Shown here: positions 2 through 14,611 of the stretch, piece after piece
How the letters are laid out: each line of letters begins with the position of its first letter
Numbering within the stretch: position 1 is the stretch's first letter
Source: a virus
Strand: one strand, 5' to 3'
Length of the DNA stretch: 24,277 nt
IMG/VR virus record: IMGVR_UViG_3300042465_002292
Location: 1 to 24,277 of that record
Made by a program: the position numbers and the translations under genes
The notes under the pieces: generated by a model
Database searches by the model: none
Seen by the model: the letters and a program-made list of their open reading frames with translations, nothing else
Told to the model about the DNA's origin: nothing

Positions 2-196
2 GGAGATGGCAGCACGGTAAATTGGGGATGGATTCTTTGGTACTTCCCCATAGTGATTCTCGTGTTTGCGTGGGCATGGAAGGAATGGGTTCGCCCGTCC
101 ATCAACGCTCTGGAGAACGAGGACATCGACAAACGAAAGCAGAACGGGCTTGCTCCTGCCGAACCGGAGGAGCCACGGCAAACCGATCAGTCCTGA
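2..196 (+). CDS. C-terminal part of a small membrane protein (5' end outside window)
   Basis: An open frame enters from the left edge and ends at TGA 194-196, giving 64 residues with no start in view. It has one strongly hydrophobic, Trp-rich stretch (about residues 8-27, containing WILWYFPIVILVFAWAW) followed by a charged, Pro/Glu-rich tail ending EEPRQTDQS. That is the profile of a single-pass membrane protein with a hydrophilic tail, possibly a phage holin- or spanin-like or virion membrane protein; no family is recognised. The frame is preferred over the alternative frame starting at 22 because its composition is protein-like and has a coherent membrane segment. It is one of only two plus-strand genes here, and its last codons overlap the end of the convergent RuvC-like gene by 10 bp. 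A stable UUCG hairpin lies 75 nt downstream. Confidence 0.6.
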   Translation, partial: GDGSTVNWGWILWYFPIVILVFAWAWKEWVRPSINALENEDIDKRKQNGLAPAEPEEPRQTDQS

Positions 197-756
197 TCGC
201 TGCCCTTCAGGTTTTCGTACATCTTCTTGCAGATGAAATACGAGTCCACGATGTCTGACACAGGACTCACGCACTCCTGACGCTTCGGTGTCAGGAGTGC
301 TTTCAAATCCACACCCGTATCGTTCAGCCACGCTGCGTACATCCCGTTCTTGTCGGAGTTGCCTTTGCCCGTGGCATATTTTTTTACTTCGGTGGGCGGT
401 ATCACGGTTACGGGTATGCTCAACTGATACAGTTTGTATTTAAGAATGCCCGTGTTCTCCGCAATGTGGAAAACCTTGCCTTGTGCGCCGTAGGCATAGC
501 CTTCCAGTGCCACATGAGAACACCCCATCACAATGTCCACTGCCCAATCCGCAAGTGTTTCATACCGCTCTTGGTCGTTGTCCCAATCGCTTAACCGCTC
601 ACCAAAAATATTCAGGGTTCTAATTTCTGATTGTCGCTTGTTGTCTGTCAAAAAATAAAATGAACAACCACTGTACGAGAATTTTCCCGTTGCGTTTTCG
701 CGGAACAAGCAGATTGCAGGCCCACAAAGAGAATAGTCAATCCCTGCTATAACCAT
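187..756 (-). CDS. RuvC-like Holliday-junction resolvase / RNase H-fold nuclease
   Basis: This 189-residue protein shows the acidic residue order of RuvC-type resolvases: Asp7 in AGIDYS on the first strand, Glu85 in VALEGYAYG, and a C-terminal pair Asp168/Asp171 in SDIVDSYF. The segment KKYATGKGNSDKNGM is typical of phage RuvC-like proteins. Such enzymes cut branched DNA that arises during recombination-dependent replication and packaging, and the UvsX gene in this window fits that need. The frame is open upstream to 804, but the ATG at 756 is chosen because the conserved first strand begins there and an upstream start would run into the divergent gene's leader. No strong Shine-Dalgarno precedes it. 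The start codon lies in an inverted repeat (753-770), which may control it. The 3' end overlaps the convergent membrane-protein gene. Confidence 0.78.
   Translation of the reverse strand: MVIAGIDYSLCGPAICLFRENATGKFSYSGCSFYFLTDNKRQSEIRTLNIFGERLSDWDNDQERYETLADWAVDIVMGCSHVALEGYAYGAQGKVFHIAENTGILKYKLYQLSIPVTVIPPTEVKKYATGKGNSDKNGMYAAWLNDTGVDLKALLTPKRQECVSPVSDIVDSYFICKKMYENLKGSDQD
271..300 (+). terminator. Very stable UUCG-tetraloop hairpin for plus-strand transcripts, inside the RuvC-like gene
   Basis: Positions 271-281 and 290-300 are perfect 11-nt inverted repeats. A G-U wobble (282/289) and a C-G pair (283/288) extend the stem to 13 bp around a TTCG loop, i.e. a C(UUCG)G tetraloop in plus-strand RNA. 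TTTC follows on the plus strand, and no T-run follows on the minus strand. Stable CUUCGG hairpins are known at transcript ends in T4-like phages. It sits 75 nt after the stop of the plus-strand membrane-protein gene, so I infer a terminator or 3'-end stabiliser embedded in the opposing coding sequence. Confidence 0.6.
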
Positions 757-777: not shown

Positions 778-798
778 GCTAAATAGAGGGAAAGGAGG
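778..798 (+). promoter_or_regulatory. Late-promoter-like box and strong ribosome binding site of the 57-residue gene
   Basis: GCTAAATA at 778-785 resembles the T4-type late promoter TATAAATA at six of eight positions. It is followed by AAAGGAGG (791-798), the strongest Shine-Dalgarno sequence seen in the window, 7 nt before the ATG at 806. The ribosome site is convincing. The promoter reading is an inference from a short AT-rich match. Confidence 0.35.
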
Positions 799-805
799 AC
801 TCAAA

Positions 806-979
806 ATGAGTACCGAAAATTACAATGAAACTGTTCTGCTACCGCTGCTTGAGAAGAAGGTTCACGAACTTACTTCAGCCCTGATCTTGGCTGAAGCGCA
901 ACTTCAGATTGCCCTGAAGCAAAAGGCTGAACTTCAGAAGAAGGTTGATTCATCTGAAGTTGCTGGCGAAGTAGGGTAA
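806..979 (+). CDS. Small coiled-coil protein (57 aa), unknown function
   Basis: Most of this 57-residue protein is predicted amphipathic helix: LLEKKVHELTSALILAEAQL continuing through repeated LQ/LK pairs has the heptad-like spacing of a coiled coil. No domain or enzyme motif is visible. The frame is open from 767, but the ATG at 806 is chosen because AAAGGAGG sits 7 nt upstream and the earlier codons cover that ribosome site. It is transcribed opposite to nearly everything else, diverging from the RuvC-like gene and converging on the protease gene. It could be a small virion, scaffold or assembly component, or a regulator; I cannot choose. The strong ribosome site suggests high expression. 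Confidence 0.65.
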   Translation: MSTENYNETVLLPLLEKKVHELTSALILAEAQLQIALKQKAELQKKVDSSEVAGEVG

Positions 980-1056
980 TCAAAACCCGAACGCTCTAGC
1001 CAAAAGAATTCCCACAAGGAAAGAACACGCACAGACCAAGACTTTTTGAAGTCGGT

Positions 1057-1830
1057 TTAGTCGCATATTTCCTCCACGGTTTGGTGTATCCACCCGATCA
1101 CCAAGTCCATGCGAACAACGGAATTCTCAAAAAGGCAACCATCATAAATCCCGAGGGACGAAATCACCCCAACAATTTCACCCTCGGGATTTATCATTGG
1201 GCCACCGGAGTCACCAAACCACACCGTGCCGTCCGTGACGAGCATTTTGAACACCCACGGCTCTTCCACAAGTGTTCCATAGTAGCGGAACACACCGTTG
1301 TCGCTGCGCTTTTTTGTGCCACCTCCGTACCCAACGGCAGTAAGAGGATCCATGCGAGTGTATGTGTACGAGTCGGAAACGGGTTTCATGGGTTCTATGT
1401 CCGAACAGTCTTCCAAGAAGACCAGTGCCACATCAAACACCCACATGTCTGCCAACAGGCATTTGGGGTGCGATATTACGAACCGGACAGGATGTTCCAC
1501 CCCTCCTGCGGTAAAAGACACTATGGTGCGATTTTCCACACAGTGAGCGGCAGTAAGTGCCACCCTTGGGTGGATGAGGGTTGCGCTGCCGATCATGCGG
1601 TCATTGCGGTCGGAGATGAAACCCACGGCAGGCATTTGGGTTTCCTCCAATAGCGAGAAACCCCTCAAGAAAAACGGCTCTTCTTGAGGGGCTTCTGCTA
1701 CTGGTTTGTTTTCCTCGCACTTAGGCGAGGGTGCGCTCTTCGGCGCAACGGCAGTGATGTCCCACGCACAGGCTTGCAGCAAGACGAGTGCAAGAGCCAG
1801 CAGAAGAGAATGGGGACTACCTCTCTTCAT
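1057..1830 (-). CDS. Trypsin-like (S1 family) serine protease with lipoprotein signal peptide
   Basis: This 257-residue protein has the complete chymotrypsin-fold triad: His96 in LTAAHC, Asp133 in VFDVALVFL and Ser208 in GDSGGP. A secretion signal begins with basic residues and a Leu/Ala core (LLLALALVLL) and ends in a lipobox-like LQAC, so Cys21 would be lipidated. Ala follows the Cys, which in Gram-negatives normally favours outer-membrane sorting. Residues 22-55 form a Pro/Glu-rich linker. Several further cysteines could form disulfides, consistent with action outside the cytoplasm. I infer a phage-encoded, surface- or periplasm-anchored endopeptidase made by the infected cell; the substrate is unknown. 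No good Shine-Dalgarno is seen before the ATG. It lies downstream of the reductase gene but beyond that gene's terminator, and its coding sequence contains several strong hairpins (see 1141-1197 and 1661-1691). A cytoplasmic virion-maturation protease is less likely given the signal. Confidence 0.85.
   Translation of the reverse strand: MKRGSPHSLLLALALVLLQACAWDITAVAPKSAPSPKCEENKPVAEAPQEEPFFLRGFSLLEETQMPAVGFISDRNDRMIGSATLIHPRVALTAAHCVENRTIVSFTAGGVEHPVRFVISHPKCLLADMWVFDVALVFLEDCSDIEPMKPVSDSYTYTRMDPLTAVGYGGGTKKRSDNGVFRYYGTLVEEPWVFKMLVTDGTVWFGDSGGPMINPEGEIVGVISSLGIYDGCLFENSVVRMDLVIGWIHQTVEEICD
1141..1197. terminator. Long perfect hairpin inside the 3' part of the protease gene
   Basis: Positions 1144-1157 and 1181-1194 are perfect 14-nt inverted repeats with a core CCCGAGGG/CCCTCGGG flanked by ATAAAT/ATTTAT. 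Inside them GAAAT (1160-1164) pairs with ATTTC (1175-1179). The A-rich 5' arm and T-rich 3' arm give a bidirectional-terminator shape. It lies 165 nt after the stop of the convergent 57-residue gene, so it may end plus-strand transcripts. In the sense direction it lies within the codons just after the catalytic serine. Its role is inferred. Confidence 0.5.
1661..1691 (-). other. Perfect 11-bp hairpin in the linker region of the protease gene
   Basis: CCCCTCAAGAA (1661-1671) and TTCTTGAGGGG (1681-1691) are exact inverted repeats with a 9-nt loop. In the sense (minus) direction the stem is followed by TTTCTC, as in a weak terminator or attenuator. Two smaller hairpins lie just upstream in the message: TGCGC/GCGCA around 1732-1747 and CCTCGC/GCGAGG around 1713-1730. 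All three fall in the low-complexity linker between the lipobox and the protease domain. An effect on expression is possible but inferred. Confidence 0.4.
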
Positions 1831-1873
1831 ACCAATATTTAGCGGGGTTCCGGGACCAAAAATTCACAGATTT

Positions 1874-1901
1874 ATGAAAAGAAACAACCCCCTGACGGGG
1901 G
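1874..1901 (-). terminator. Rho-independent terminator after the ribonucleotide reductase gene
   Basis: Read on the minus strand, CCCCC (1901-1897), a GTCA loop and GGGGG (1892-1888) form a short GC-only stem, followed by TTGTTTCTTTT. It begins 38 nt after the reductase stop codon. This separates the reductase transcript from the protease gene, so the latter may need its own promoter or read-through. Confidence 0.75.
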
Positions 1902-1938: not shown

Positions 1939-3858
1939 TTATGTAGTCAGATCAACCACCTCACACTTGTCTCCGCTGCAAGCGTATGTCTGTGTGCCCT
2001 TGGTGGAGTCTTCCTTTTCAAACTTGATGAGTCCTGACCAGTCCACATTCTGTGGGATGGTCTTCAGTGCAGCCTCGTATTGCTCTGCGGTGCAGTCCTG
2101 ATACGGGGCTTGCTGATAGGTGTGATCGGAGTGGGGCAGGAAAGAAATGCCGCTGATCTCGTCAAAGTGCGCGTACACCCACGCACCCACCTCCATCCAC
2201 TCACCTTCCCGCACGGTAACAGTGATGCTTGGCTTGTGTTCACACCAGTGCCGCTGATAGGTAAGCCACAACTCCAAGTGTTCAATTGCAGTCATGTCGT
2301 TGCGGGTAACGGAACCCACTGCCTTCATGGGGAACGAAAACACCATCGTGTGGTCGGGGCGCATGACACACGGCTCCGCAGGGAATCCCTGTTCGATCAT
2401 AAACTGGCACAGGGGGTCTTTACGGTCAGCGCGGACGGTGCGGATGTAGTATTCGCTGTGCCGTGCGTGAATGCCGCTTGCGGAATCCGTCAACTGCGAC
2501 ACCGTGCCGCTTGGCTTTACACAAGTGATTGCTGCCGCAGGGTTGATGCCCATGCGCTTTGCCCACTCCTTGTTTGCGTCCACCGCTGTCTCACGGAGGC
2601 AAGACAGGAGAGAATCAAGTTCAGTGCCCTGTGTACGCATCATCTTGTTGTCAAGGATTCCCGTGAGCGAAACTCCAAGCAGTGCTTCCTCCTCGCAGTT
2701 CTTGCGCCAATCACTGCTGAGGTACGGGAAGTGGGTAAGCGAGGCTTGCCAAGTGCCGAGAATGGCTGCTAGACGAACCTTTCGCTTGAGAGTGTCAGCA
2801 GTATCATCGGGACGGACAATGACTTCAGAAAGGTTACAAAATTCCTTGTCACGAAGAATAATTTCCGAGCAAGGATTCGTGCCGAATTCATAAGTCGCAT
2901 CACGGCGTTCTCCTAGTTTTGAAACGGTTTTCTGTGCGGCTTGGCGATTGAACACGCCACGCTCACCGCTCTTGCTCTTGTACAGAGACAGCCACTCCTC
3001 CATGAATGTGCCGATCTCGGGCTTCTCCTTGTACGCAACGGAATTGTTTGCTAACGCCCGTTGTGGGTTGTCCAACCACCATTGACCCACCTTAGCATCA
3101 CGCATCCGTTCATCCGTGAGGTTGGAAAGCGAGATAAGAGCCGATCTACGGACACCCCCGACAACGACAATCTCTGCAACCTTACAGATAATGTCGTGGC
3201 ATTCAATGGAAGTGAGTTTTCGTCCCGCAGCCTTCTTAAAAGTACTGACGGTAAATCGGAAGAGGTCTTCCAGTGGCTGTGGTCCACTTGCGCGTCCACC
3301 GAAAGTCTTGAGGCGCGAACCAGCAGGACGAATGTGAGACAAGTCCCATCGGGGGATTTGACCTCCAATAAGTAGGGATACCAGTTCTCGGAAGGATTTT
3401 GCCCATCCTTCTTTGGAGTCCTTGACAACGATGAGCGTATCGCTGTTGGTAAACTCTTCAGCAATTGTAGGAAGTTTCTCCACATACTGCCTCTCCACGC
3501 TGAAGCCCACTCCCGTTCCGCACATGAGAATGTAAAGAATCTCATCGAATGCGCGAACCTTGTTTACAGCAATGTAGGAGCAGTTGTAGCCTGCGGTGTT
3601 ATCCCGCTTCAGTGCTTCGCCTGCGGTCATCAGTGACCGCATGGACGGCATGACTTCAAGGTTCAGGACTGCATCACGCAATTCCTCTCGTACTGTTTTA
3701 TTTATCTTGATTCCCTTTTCTGCGAAATGCTCATCGAAGAAATTGAAATACCGATTCACGGTTTCTTCCCAAGACTCACGCCGCTTGTTGTCTTCAAGCC
3801 AGCGTGAGTAGCGCGAAAGGTGAATAAACTCTTGGTAGAGTGTGGGAAGTCGCTTCAT
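1939..3858 (-). CDS. nrdJ: Adenosylcobalamin-dependent ribonucleoside-triphosphate reductase (class II, monomeric type)
   Basis: This 639-residue enzyme reduces ribonucleotides to deoxyribonucleotides using vitamin B12. The catalytic set of the Lactobacillus leichmannii enzyme is all recognisable: Cys93 in AGYNCSY (C119 there), thiyl Cys330 and Glu332 in NPCSEI (C408, E410), Cys341 in FCNLSE (C419), and the C-terminal reducing pair Cys627/Cys632 in ACSGDKC (C731/C736, same spacing). CGTGVGFSVE, GGVRRSALISLSN and CVKPSGTVSQL are family signatures. It is about 100 residues shorter than the Lactobacillus enzyme; roughly half of that is missing between the first and the thiyl cysteine. The ATG has AAGGAG 8 nt upstream. 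It works without NrdB-type iron or oxygen but depends on host or scavenged cobalamin. With ThyX it forms the phage's nucleotide-supply arm. It follows the glycosyltransferase genes after a 104-bp gap and ends in its own terminator. Confidence 0.93.
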   Translation of the reverse strand: MKRLPTLYQEFIHLSRYSRWLEDNKRRESWEETVNRYFNFFDEHFAEKGIKINKTVREELRDAVLNLEVMPSMRSLMTAGEALKRDNTAGYNCSYIAVNKVRAFDEILYILMCGTGVGFSVERQYVEKLPTIAEEFTNSDTLIVVKDSKEGWAKSFRELVSLLIGGQIPRWDLSHIRPAGSRLKTFGGRASGPQPLEDLFRFTVSTFKKAAGRKLTSIECHDIICKVAEIVVVGGVRRSALISLSNLTDERMRDAKVGQWWLDNPQRALANNSVAYKEKPEIGTFMEEWLSLYKSKSGERGVFNRQAAQKTVSKLGERRDATYEFGTNPCSEIILRDKEFCNLSEVIVRPDDTADTLKRKVRLAAILGTWQASLTHFPYLSSDWRKNCEEEALLGVSLTGILDNKMMRTQGTELDSLLSCLRETAVDANKEWAKRMGINPAAAITCVKPSGTVSQLTDSASGIHARHSEYYIRTVRADRKDPLCQFMIEQGFPAEPCVMRPDHTMVFSFPMKAVGSVTRNDMTAIEHLELWLTYQRHWCEHKPSITVTVREGEWMEVGAWVYAHFDEISGISFLPHSDHTYQQAPYQDCTAEQYEAALKTIPQNVDWSGLIKFEKEDSTKGTQTYACSGDKCEVVDLTT

Positions 3859-7295: not shown

Positions 7296-10200
7296 TCATA
7301 CGATACCCATGTTAAATAGTGCCAAGTTGGTTGTTGACGAATACACAGAATCTGCCTCAATTTTTGCTGCTTGCACATTGTTTGCAAATGTGACTCCTCC
7401 TGCCGCGCTTATTCCCGCATACACTGTCATCATGCCAGAGAACGAAGAAGTGCTTGACGCAAAGAAATCGGTGTATACGCTTGTTGAGGTATCAAAACAT
7501 TCAATTGCTTGTGTGCCGTTTGCCCACAGACGAATGGCACTTTCGTCATTGTTTACCTCTATCTCTGTGCCTCCGGCAGCACCAAGATACAGCGTTTCTG
7601 AAGTTCCTGCTTGAATTCTTCCCGTGCCACGGATATTGATGTTTGAAAATGTTGCACCAGCGGCAGAAACACCGCCCATAGCGTTCACAAGACCGTATAT
7701 GTACGCAGCGGTCTGCGTGGCTGCTCCAATCACGGCAGTGTTGGAACCGAATCCGACTGCCTGTGTGCCTATCACGATTTCATTGGTTGATAAATCGGTT
7801 CCGATATTAGAGTACCCGATGTAGATTCCACCAGTTGCTGTTACAACATCGGTTCCAGTTAGTCTTCCGATTGCAGTGTTGAAGGAACCCGCTGATAGAG
7901 CGGACAGTGCGCCATTTCCTGCTGCGGTGTTGCTACTGCCGTTGTTTACAAGAAGTGCGCGTCTACCAAATGCGGTGTTAAAACTTCCTGTTGTGTTTGC
8001 ATTCAAAGCACCGTCACCCACGGCAACATTTGAACTACCCGTGGTGTTTGCATTAAGTGCGTTGTTTCCTATTGCCGTACTTATAGACCCAGTTGAATTT
8101 GAGGCAAGCGCATTAACACCAACGGCTGTATTGGTGGAAACTCCACCACCCCCTCTTCCAACCGTAAGGCTGTTAACGGTTATGTCTGCTGCGGAGGTAA
8201 TGGTATCACTGGTGGCATTTCCGAGGCTTACATTGCCATTGGCAACAATGTTTCCGTCCACAGTCAGGGTTGCACCCGCAGGAATCCGAGTGTTTGCGGA
8301 CAGGGTGGCTCCTGCTGCGCTGATTCCTGAATTGAATGACTGCAACACCGTGAAGGTGTTTGCCACCGATGTGGTGACACCACCGACAGCACCTGTTACA
8401 CCATTGAAACTGGTGACATAATTCACGAAAGAAACTGCGCCAGTTTGTCCGTTCCAAGACGACACGCCTTGGACAGCACCTGTCAACCCGTTGAACGACT
8501 GTACGCCAACATTGGTTATGGTGACCGACCCCGTTGCAGCATTCAGGAAGATGCCTGTCCCGGCAACAGCGGCAGACACGCCTTGGACAGCACCTGTCAA
8601 CCCGTTGAACGATGTGACCGCAGTGGTTGCTGCCGTGGAACCATTCACGGTTCCAATCACCTGATTGGTGAGTGCCACCGTTCCAGACAAGTTGGGGAAT
8701 TTGATTTCCCGGTTTGCCGTGGGTGTGTCCATGCTGACATCAAGATAAAACGCTCCTGCCTTTGTTTCATCACTCCACAGGCGCAGTCTTGGATTGTATG
8801 TTGTTTTATCGCCGTCCCAATACGAAAAATAAGAGTATATGCCACCAGAAAACAGAGTTTCCGATGATGAAATGGGGAGAGTTATGCTTGAGACTGTTCC
8901 AGTCAGTGGAGTATTTGGTGTTGGAGCAAGAACTAGGTTGTGTCGTGGTCGGAGTTCAAGCGTTATGCCAGTATTTGTCCTGATGTACGCGGAATTTCCT
9001 GTGCTTGGCCCAACAGTGATAGTGTTTGGACGCAGAGACAGAGTTCCAGAATTTCCTCCGCTGTTGTTTCCAATGGTGATTCCCGTGCTTGTGTCGAACA
9101 GTAAAATTCCTGTTGAAGTTGATGCTGCTCGGATTATGCCGTTACCGCTGATGATGTTGCCGTTCAAGGTTGCACCAGCAGCACTTATACCACCGGGAAA
9201 GTTTGTAAGAGTATTGAAGGTGTTTGTGCCAGTAAATGTTTGCGTTCCCGCAAGTCCTGCAAGAGTTGTGCTATAATTTGGAAGAGATACGGTTATTGTG
9301 CTTGCTGATGCAATAGTTGGTTGAAGGTATACTTCTCCACTAGAAATGTCATTATAAAAGTACAACCTGTTGAATTCTCCCTGAAATGATACTTCGTTTA
9401 AGGAAGACGAATCCACAATCGACAAAACAGCATTTGATGTACTTATTGTTTGACTTGCACTGAAAATGTTATCCACATTAGTTCTAGCAACATTCGTAAT
9501 GGCACCAGTACCACCGTTAATGCTCAATACACCAGTGTTGTTGAAGGTCATGGTTTGACCAGAAACACTCAAACCGATTCCGCTTCCGTTGGTGATTCCA
9601 ACAGCACCAGTCAGTCCACGAACACTGTTTACGCCCGTAACAGCACCAGTCAAGCCATTGAAACTGGTAACATAATCAGTAAATGTAACAGCACCCGTCT
9701 GTCCGTTCCAAGACGAGACACCCTGTACATTTCCTGTGTTGCCGTTGAACGACAGCACACCTGTGTTGGTGATGGTGACTGATCCAGTTGCAGCATTCAA
9801 GAAGATTCCTGTCCCTGCTGCGGCAGCGGACACACCCTGTACTGCTCCGGTGCGTCCATTGAATCCTGACACATAATCAACAAAGGTAACAGCACCAGTC
9901 TGCCCGTTCCAAGACGACACGCCTTGGACAGCACCCGTCAACCCGTTGAATGACTGAACGCCAACATTGGTAATGGTGACTGATCCGGTAGCACCACTGA
10001 CGAAAATTCCTGTTCCGGCAACCGCTGCACTGACACCCTGCAACGAACCAGTCAGCCCGTTAAAAGAACCAACATAGTCGGTTGGAATGTCATAATACTG
10101 TGTTCCGTTGTTGGTAAATGTCCATCGGTCGCTGCTCTCGTTCCACAGCAAATATACATTGGGTGATGTACCGCGTTCAATCTCAATACCAGAGTTCTCC

Positions 10201-11369
10201 GTGGGAGTGCCCGTGACATTGGAGTTTAGTGTGATGATATTGTCTTCAATCAACACATTTTCACTGATGGTGAAGGTTACCCCACCACTTACGGTTAGGT
10301 TACCACTTACGGACATATTGCCGCTTACCGTCAAACCAGCACCCACCGTCAGACCAGTGGTGACAAGACCACCATTAAAAGTATTGAGTTCTGTGAATGT
10401 GTTTGCACCGAGGGACGCACCAAACACTGATCCTGTTTTTCCATTAAAACTACTGACATAATTCACGAACGAAACTGCGCCAGTTTGTCCGTTCCAAGAC
10501 GATACGCCTTGAACCGCGCCAGTGAATCCGTTGAATGACTGTACGCCAACATTGGTAATGGTGACTGATCCGGTAGCACCACTGACGAAAATTCCTGTGC
10601 CTGCCACAGCAGCGGACACACCTTGCACCGCACCCGTTCGTCCGTTGAATGATGTTACGGTGTCTGCAACAATCTCGTTTTGCACAAACGCAGTAGTTGC
10701 CACTTGAGTATTGTTGGTTCCGGTAGCGGGTGTCGGTGCGGTGACTGTACCACTAAGCGTTGCACCCGCTGCGGAAATACCGGAATTGAATGACTGCAAC
10801 ACCGTGAAGGTGTTTGCCACCGATGTGGTTACGCCTCCCACAGCACCTGTTACACCATTGAAACTGGTGACATAATCCACAAACGAAACAGCACCTGTCT
10901 GCCCGTTCCAAGACGATACGCCTTGCACATTTCCTGTGTTGCCGTTGAAAGACTGTACGCCAATATTTGTAATTGTTATAGCACCAGTGGCAGCATTCAG
11001 GAAGATGCCTGCTCCTGCTGCGGCAGACGAAACTCCCTGTACTGCCCCGGTGCGCCCGTTGAAAGTGGAAACATAATCACCACCAATTCCACTGCCGCCC
11101 ACAAATCCAAATGTAAATCCTGTAGTCCATCCGCTGTTTGCAGTCGTGCCAATCAAGGCATAATAAGCGGTGAGTCCGCTCACATAGACAATCATGCCCA
11201 CTTGCCGCCGCTCGGCATAGATGGCTTCCATCTCTGCTGTTGTTCCGACAGTTCGCAATCCACCAAGACCAAACTGAGGATCCGTCAATGCAAATGTCTG
11301 CTCGTATGTGTCGGGTCCAACGGTTCCCGTGAGTTTCACATATGAAGATGGAAGTGGTCCTGATGGCAT
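7296..11369 (-). CDS. Long tail-fibre protein with repeated NGxTG modules and a YadA-like head-repeat domain
   Basis: This 1357-residue protein is the largest in the window. The first roughly 100 residues are unique (FALTDPQFGLGGLRTVGT and a VGMIVYVSGLTAYYAL segment) and probably attach to the virion. Then come about twenty copies of a short motif of the form SFNGxTGAVxGV, grouped in larger modules with TGSVTITNVGVQSFNG and five copies of SSWNGQTGAV. GISAAGATL-type motifs recur at least four times. Two insertions of non-repeat sequence interrupt the array. Nearer the C-terminus are repeats like NTAVGVNALASNSTGS and NTAIGNNALNANTTGS, the left-handed beta-roll repeat of trimeric autotransporter (YadA-type) heads. 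I infer a trimeric receptor-binding fibre. AAAGGA lies 10 nt before the ATG, 14 nt after the collagen-like fibre. No chaperone or self-cleavage domain is recognised at the end. Confidence 0.88.
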   Translation of the reverse strand: MPSGPLPSSYVKLTGTVGPDTYEQTFALTDPQFGLGGLRTVGTTAEMEAIYAERRQVGMIVYVSGLTAYYALIGTTANSGWTTGFTFGFVGGSGIGGDYVSTFNGRTGAVQGVSSAAAGAGIFLNAATGAITITNIGVQSFNGNTGNVQGVSSWNGQTGAVSFVDYVTSFNGVTGAVGGVTTSVANTFTVLQSFNSGISAAGATLSGTVTAPTPATGTNNTQVATTAFVQNEIVADTVTSFNGRTGAVQGVSAAVAGTGIFVSGATGSVTITNVGVQSFNGFTGAVQGVSSWNGQTGAVSFVNYVSSFNGKTGSVFGASLGANTFTELNTFNGGLVTTGLTVGAGLTVSGNMSVSGNLTVSGGVTFTISENVLIEDNIITLNSNVTGTPTENSGIEIERGTSPNVYLLWNESSDRWTFTNNGTQYYDIPTDYVGSFNGLTGSLQGVSAAVAGTGIFVSGATGSVTITNVGVQSFNGLTGAVQGVSSWNGQTGAVTFVDYVSGFNGRTGAVQGVSAAAAGTGIFLNAATGSVTITNTGVLSFNGNTGNVQGVSSWNGQTGAVTFTDYVTSFNGLTGAVTGVNSVRGLTGAVGITNGSGIGLSVSGQTMTFNNTGVLSINGGTGAITNVARTNVDNIFSASQTISTSNAVLSIVDSSSLNEVSFQGEFNRLYFYNDISSGEVYLQPTIASASTITVSLPNYSTTLAGLAGTQTFTGTNTFNTLTNFPGGISAAGATLNGNIISGNGIIRAASTSTGILLFDTSTGITIGNNSGGNSGTLSLRPNTITVGPSTGNSAYIRTNTGITLELRPRHNLVLAPTPNTPLTGTVSSITLPISSSETLFSGGIYSYFSYWDGDKTTYNPRLRLWSDETKAGAFYLDVSMDTPTANREIKFPNLSGTVALTNQVIGTVNGSTAATTAVTSFNGLTGAVQGVSAAVAGTGIFLNAATGSVTITNVGVQSFNGLTGAVQGVSSWNGQTGAVSFVNYVTSFNGVTGAVGGVTTSVANTFTVLQSFNSGISAAGATLSANTRIPAGATLTVDGNIVANGNVSLGNATSDTITSAADITVNSLTVGRGGGGVSTNTAVGVNALASNSTGSISTAIGNNALNANTTGSSNVAVGDGALNANTTGSFNTAFGRRALLVNNGSSNTAAGNGALSALSAGSFNTAIGRLTGTDVVTATGGIYIGYSNIGTDLSTNEIVIGTQAVGFGSNTAVIGAATQTAAYIYGLVNAMGGVSAAGATFSNINIRGTGRIQAGTSETLYLGAAGGTEIEVNNDESAIRLWANGTQAIECFDTSTSVYTDFFASSTSSFSGMMTVYAGISAAGGVTFANNVQAAKIEADSVYSSTTNLALFNMGIV
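7864..8132 (-). repeat. YadA-like head repeats coding block
   Basis: About six consecutive repeats of roughly 14-16 residues, each with an N-T-A-[VIF]-G core followed by N-A-L, are encoded here (for example NTAVGVNALASN and NTAFGRRALLVNNGSS). In bacterial trimeric adhesins such repeats stack into a beta-roll that binds surfaces. The DNA copies are diverged, so they are not recent slippage products. Confidence 0.75.
8329..8375 (-). repeat. 47-nt exact direct repeat in the long fibre gene, copy 1 (partner at 10783-10829)
   Basis: These 47 bases are identical to 10783-10829, about 2.45 kb away in the same gene and orientation. They code for part of the twice-occurring segment VTTSVANTFTVLQSFNSGIS. 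Flanking sequence is similar but diverged, which points to a larger duplicated module with recent exchange in its core. Confidence 0.85.
10783..10829 (-). repeat. 47-nt exact direct repeat in the long fibre gene, copy 2
   Basis: Exact partner of 8329-8375. Recombination between the two copies would delete or duplicate about 2.45 kb. The distance is 2454 bp, a multiple of three, so the reading frame would be kept. Confidence 0.85.
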
Positions 11370-11383
11370 CTATTCATTATCCT

Positions 11384-14611
<3,228 letters not shown>

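Follow-up and report, generated by a model that had tools for sequence, protein, structure and literature searches.

A predicted lipid-anchored S1-family protease with a putative late promoter at a fixed locus of uncultured T4-like phages

Closest described systems and the source contig

Assembly is the role usually assigned to phage serine proteases, and phage lipoproteins are usually seen as small receptor blockers. T4 gp21, the prohead protease, serves assembly in the cytoplasm and belongs to another family than the protease that we describe here; both are late phage serine proteases (ours by its promoter motif), whereas our open reading frame (ORF) predicts an exported product. Phage lipoproteins made in the infected cell, as ours would be, include T5 Llp and the T1-type Cor proteins (PMC9586334), but these are small binders without an enzyme domain, in contrast to ours, which combines a protease domain with a late motif upstream of its gene. 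An identity as a small, non-enzymatic, receptor-jamming lipoprotein of the Llp/Cor type was considered and does not fit a product of 257 aa with an S1 domain. HtrA, DegP and DegS combine a Trypsin_2 catalytic domain with a location in the envelope, as predicted for our protease, which differs from them in its predicted lipid anchor, in having GDSGG rather than GNSGG, and in lacking a PDZ domain. The best PDB structure and profile matches lie instead with the S1A proteases (granzyme M, proteinase 3, tryptase), with which the Asp194-type GDSGG is common; our protease departs from these in its Thr at 189 and its Asn near 226, in the absence of a conserved Cys42 to pair with Cys58, and in its bacterial lipoprotein signal. 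Members of PHROG 9683 and other phage Trypsin_2 proteins likewise place the S1 fold and triad in a bacterial virus, and structure matches in BFVD include unnamed Caudovirales trypsin-like proteins. What sets our protease apart from these is its predicted lipoprotein form, its fixed T4-like locus and its late-promoter architecture, for which we found no description in the open-access literature searched; a search of the same literature for phage-encoded lipoprotein or periplasmic proteases found nothing relevant.

The gene lies on a 24.3-kb linear IMG/VR fragment (the window, by which we mean the whole stretch of DNA analyzed). Judged by its gene content, which includes a T4-like set of gp43-type polymerase, UvsX, primase, helicase, class II ribonucleotide reductase (RNR) and ThyX, the window is a piece of an uncultured T4-like phage genome. 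Named relatives are distant: the window polymerase has ~50% identity to cyanophage polymerases, the terminase of a relative is ~57% identical to cyanophage terminases, and the RNR has ~65% identity to roseobacter-phage enzymes. RNR matches to alphaproteobacterial phages provide one lead to the host; against these, two weak leads point to Planctomycetota/Verrucomicrobiota, namely a match of a neighboring protein to Verrucomicrobia phage P8625 and a sub-threshold GC-type dockerin in the subtilase discussed below. Elsewhere in the window, the segment 3963–5587 (minus strand) contains DUF6734, a family without assigned function, twice in tandem in diverged copies, and two giant fiber-like proteins are encoded at 11384–14611 and 7296–11369 (both minus strand); in one, GXY and GIQ repeats of the collagen type run over long stretches, and the other has repeated 12-residue units.

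The predicted lipoprotein and its catalytic domain

The features of the protease gene, with positions in the window, are as follows.

1057–1830, minus strand: coding sequence of the S1-family lipoprotein protease, complete, 257 aa, ATG start (Pfam, PHROG and structure matches)
1768–1830, minus strand: predicted type II signal peptide MKRGSPHSLLLALALVLLQA with lipobox Cys21 (LQAC at 1768–1779; motif, shuffle test, conservation)
1543–1545, minus strand: predicted catalytic His96 (TAAHC; chymotrypsin His57), from sequence and homologue alignment
1432–1434, minus strand: predicted catalytic Asp133 (chymotrypsin Asp102), from sequence and homologue alignment
1207–1209, minus strand: predicted catalytic Ser208 in GDSGG (chymotrypsin Ser195), from sequence and homologue alignment

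A first-pass annotation of this DNA had read the ORF at 1830–1057 (minus strand) as a phage-encoded protease with a complete S1 triad, and had suggested a structure search as a check; on a T4-like phage fragment, this reading holds in each respect. The translation exceeds the curated cut-offs of both Pfam Trypsin_2 (1.2e-15) and Trypsin (2.5e-11), and matches PHROG 9683, annotated “protease”, at 1.1e-9. An AlphaFold model with 22 phage relatives as input reaches a pLDDT of 80.8 overall and >90 across most of the catalytic domain, and Foldseek aligns it with S1A proteases in the PDB (E ~1e-11, TM 0.6–0.7), tryptase, granzyme M and proteinase 3 among them. We assign the ORF to family S1, with a predicted chymotrypsin-type double beta-barrel. 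The triad is invariant among the aligned homologues (His in 57/57, Asp in 57/57, and Ser in 56/56 of those reaching the Ser column), in the contexts TA[AG]HC, D and GDSGG. The term “trypsin-like” cannot be extended to specificity, however: in the sequence alignment, Thr202 takes the place of S1 residue 189, and Thr stands there in 53 of 56 homologues, where trypsin has Asp189, so that cleavage after Lys/Arg is not expected and was rejected. PADLOC matches (RT-Protease, subtilase) reflect the common protease domain alone, and a defense-gene reading was discarded.

The fold bears on the possibility that this is an auxiliary quality-control enzyme, which would act in the periplasm as HtrA/DegP do and ease envelope stress in the infected cell. 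In favor of this, the Trypsin_2 model describes protease domains of the HtrA type, the profile search also matched DegP and DegS, and in another T4-like phage the subtilase has a DegS-like Trypsin_2 lipoprotein as its neighbor. Yet the NCBIfam HtrA/DegP models score 16–24 bits against cut-offs of 416–800, and membership of HtrA/DegP was rejected at 24.2 bits against a cut-off of 416.2 with no PDZ match; together with GDSGG in place of GNSGG, this leaves a quality-control role improbable.

The N-terminus of the window protease, MKRGSPHSLLLALALVLLQA|CAWD, begins with a short basic stretch, continues as a hydrophobic run and ends in LLQA|C. The export signal and lipobox LQAC of the first-pass annotation are corroborated both by a PROSITE-like lipobox rule and by conservation across relatives, on which our type II call rests. 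When the first 60 residues of the protease were shuffled, 441 of 100,000 shuffles satisfied the rule, and in a 96-kb relative it is satisfied by 2 of 103 ORFs against 0.235 expected, the two being the protease and its adjacent gene. Across 59 distinct complete N-termini, with protein identity down to ~32%, a hydrophobic segment, a small residue and then the Cys are kept in every one; the four residues that end in this Cys are LQAC in 36, FGAC in 12, STSC in 4, IPAC and SSSC in 2 each, and INAC, SFSC and ITSC in 1 each. Two diverged N-termini (INAC, IPAC) fail the strict rule while keeping the hydrophobic core and a small residue before the Cys. A Cys that is kept while the flanking letters vary is what selection on lipidation predicts, and we read the protease as a bacterial lipoprotein with a type II signal, for which lipidation and membrane attachment are predicted. 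Homologues lacking the N-terminal segment or the triad, which would have spoken against the first-pass reading, were looked for and did not appear in these alignments.

Less can be said of the side of the envelope to which the protein would be sorted. By the +2 rule of E. coli, a lipoprotein without Asp at +2 goes to the outer membrane. The window protease has Ala there, from which the first-pass annotation had concluded that it was “outer-membrane-sorted”; but of the 59 homologues 30 have Ala at +2, 11 Asp, 8 Val, 6 Asn and 2 Lys, with Glu and Thr once each, and the E. coli rule, which may not be that of the host, predicts no uniform sorting for a residue that varies in this way. We do not retain that part of the annotation.

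Locus, late motif and rate of evolution

Surrounding the protease gene, the window contains the following features.

1836–1842, minus strand: CTAAATA, a late-promoter motif of the T4 type whose end lies 5 nt upstream of the ATG
1888–1901, minus strand: terminator-like hairpin CCCCCGTCAGGGGG with a T-rich tract, closing the upstream RNR unit (from sequence; conserved in the upstream alignment)
1939–3858, minus strand: class II (cobalamin-dependent) RNR, the upstream neighbor and left flank of the slot
187–756, minus strand: RuvC-like resolvase, the downstream neighbor and right flank of the slot
806–979, plus strand: small ORF, coiled-coil-like, that faces the protease and is preceded by a CTAAATA of its own (779–785, plus strand)
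2–196, plus strand: C-terminal part of LIPO2, a second protein predicted to be a lipoprotein, which has a transmembrane segment (L002:7635–7955 is a complete copy)

The protease was found at >90 IMG/VR loci, at a single site between the class II RNR and RuvC-like resolvase genes. Direct search of uncultured viral contigs gave 37 protease loci, and a route through the RuvC-like gene gave the protease at 63 of 70 further loci, a few of them on contigs of the direct-search set. Of 80 contigs anchored on the RuvC-like gene, 73 have the protease in the slot between the two flanking genes, a count of fragments in which near-identical contigs are not independent, and the conserved position that the first-pass annotation had proposed to look for is thereby supported. 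Three different members used as queries matched nothing among 50,697 named phage records, and two diverged members matched nothing there even at E 0.1; a scan of cellular-genome contigs returned only two gammaproteobacterial matches, too distant to be informative (24–26% identity over ~90 residues). The accessory genes that separate the RNR gene from the protease vary across loci; in the most distant lineage, the ORFs just before the protease (L106:1765–2151, L114:3087–3458, L117:2026–2373) are glycine-rich with signal-peptide-like starts. A conserved 146-aa membrane protein lies beside LIPO2 (L002:7635–8405, minus strand); it belongs to phrog_38283, whose function is unassigned, and it matches Verrucomicrobia phage P8625.

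In all 58 relatives whose sequence extends upstream of the protease ATG, TA[AG]ATA (as CTARATA or ATAAATA) stands 5–8 nt before it. For the T4-like phage Aeh1, CTAAATA has been reported as a putative late motif, and the T4 late motif itself, TATAAATA, lies at -13 to -6 from the transcription start (PMC1524935). In the 96-kb relative, which encodes a homologue of the gp55 late sigma factor (phrog_234, 8e-59), CTAAATA is the top-enriched 7-mer upstream of genes, with 10 observed against 0.83 expected (12-fold); the window has two copies, each directly before a gene of the protease locus, a count that is not above chance. The spacing between motif and ATG implies that the transcript would start at or very near the ATG. 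We infer that the protease is a T4-type late gene with a gp55-type promoter.

The late motif, together with the neighboring genes, raises the possibility of a lysis factor, in which the protease would degrade envelope-holding proteins or inhibitors of the endolysin and form a lysis module with the adjacent membrane protein and LIPO2. The genes for these two lie adjacent to the protease, diverge from it, and are kept in nearly all loci, as such a module would have it. However, the membrane protein (phrog_38283) has no holin match, and its identity as a holin found no support; no endolysin was identified at the locus; and one lineage has no protease. We regard a lysis function as unlikely.

The protease has a dN/dS of 0.04–0.33 across the tested pairs, usually 2–4 times that of its neighbors (RNR 0.03–0.12, RuvC-like 0.02–0.15, membrane protein 0.02–0.15), and its identity to most relatives is 32–51%, as against 73–91% for the RNR, 64–92% for the RuvC-like protein and 65–97% for the membrane protein. 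By these estimates the protease is under purifying selection and usually changes faster than its neighbors. Ratios in this range indicate that its function is maintained, and faster change is expected of a protein facing variable host targets, although it is also expected under weaker constraint. The same ratios, well below 1, argue against a non-functional leftover, that is, a host gene recently carried along by chance and without selected function. Such cargo would be in keeping with the variable accessory genes next to the protease and with the one empty slot described below, but not with a triad and lipobox that are invariant at ~32% identity, nor with presence in 73 of 80 contigs, and we consider it very improbable.

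A protease that outpaces its neighbors also fits an arms race, as would be the case in superinfection exclusion, where the anchored enzyme would protect the infected cell by cleaving the receptor, or the incoming tail or ejected proteins of competing phages. Small phage lipoproteins such as T5 Llp and T1-type Cor achieve exclusion without catalysis (PMC9586334). Exclusion usually pays early, however, and the protease gene has a late motif, whereas T5 Llp is called early-expressed in the title of reference 22 in PMC9586334; nor is the protease beside receptor-binding genes, unlike llp. We consider exclusion possible but rather doubtful; with the lysis factor, it is the chief alternative to the role proposed below.

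Exchange within the slot and a proposed role

In 6 of the 80 RuvC-anchored contigs (L062, L064–L068), the slot is occupied by an ORF of 468–480 aa of the subtilisin family (S8; Pfam Peptidase_S8, 5e-43), which is unrelated to the S1 protease, and in one (L053) the slot is empty, with 73 bp. In a tree of the RNR and RuvC-like proteins, the subtilase carriers group together (100/99), and both they and the empty site nest within the protease-bearing clade, so that subtilase and empty slot are both derived states. The presence of an unrelated subtilase in the same slot suggests that the kept trait is proteolysis; the empty slot of L053, for its part, shows that at least one lineage can do without the protease. 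At its N-terminus the subtilase carries a hydrophobic stretch, and its C-terminus is dockerin-like (NCBIfam dockerin_GC, sub-threshold). In all copies seen of its family (L062:4334–5740, plus strand, L064–L068 and L118–L124), Glu replaces the catalytic Asp (VIETGV), and hence the enzyme may have little or no activity, in which case the argument from exchange would lose force.

A relative of the slot subtilase also occurs in L121, a T4-like phage of 177 kb, directly after the ORF of a different Trypsin_2 lipoprotein (L121:4173–4970, plus strand), which is DegS-like, has LNAC|KGV, and carries TATAAATA upstream. Predicted trypsin-type and subtilase ORFs thus recur in these phages at the same place or side by side. 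The L121 ORF at 872–1789 (plus strand) starts in the manner of a signal peptide, shows an amphipathic pattern like that of an outer-membrane barrel, and gave no match in Pfam, PHROG or NCBIfam.

We propose that the window protease is a late-made, lipid-anchored S1 enzyme that is sent to the host envelope and cuts envelope proteins there, its purpose being late envelope clearance, a reading that we hold with about even confidence and that the late promoter and the subtilase exchange favor. From fold, triad, lipobox, locus and late motif, which are sequence-based, we would derive location, activity, substrate and benefit as follows. Transcription from a gp55-type late promoter at the start codon, suggested by the conserved motif and the gp55 homologue, would yield an mRNA almost without leader. 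The precursor would be exported by Sec, and host Lgt and LspA would lipidate Cys21 and remove the signal peptide, as the lipobox predicts. A linker of ~30 residues would then hold the catalytic domain at a membrane surface, on its periplasmic or external side, where the Ser-His-Asp triad, with an S1 pocket that is not that of trypsin, would cut a single envelope protein or a small number of them. Proteins of the host surface or periplasm, among them phage receptors or envelope-holding proteins, would in this way be stripped, and progeny would be released without re-adsorption to infected cells or debris. The first-pass annotation had entertained receptor cutting against superinfection, processing of host envelope proteins during lysis and processing of fiber proteins, roles that stay conjectural; nothing in our analysis points to the last of these.

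A stronger form of late envelope clearance, which we advance tentatively and consider less likely than the proposal above, is that the slot is a late position that must supply an envelope-tethered protease, mostly an S1 lipoprotein and elsewhere an S8 subtilase with a dockerin-like tail (a lipid as against a dockerin anchor), for the late catalytic removal of receptors or envelope-holding proteins. If true, this would be an analogue of the receptor-destroying enzymes, not described for T4-like phages in the open-access literature searched. A conserved, late, lipid-anchored protease that is swapped for a member of an unrelated family would point to envelope proteolysis as an unrecognized step, and cutting envelope proteins is apparently a job that these viruses need done.
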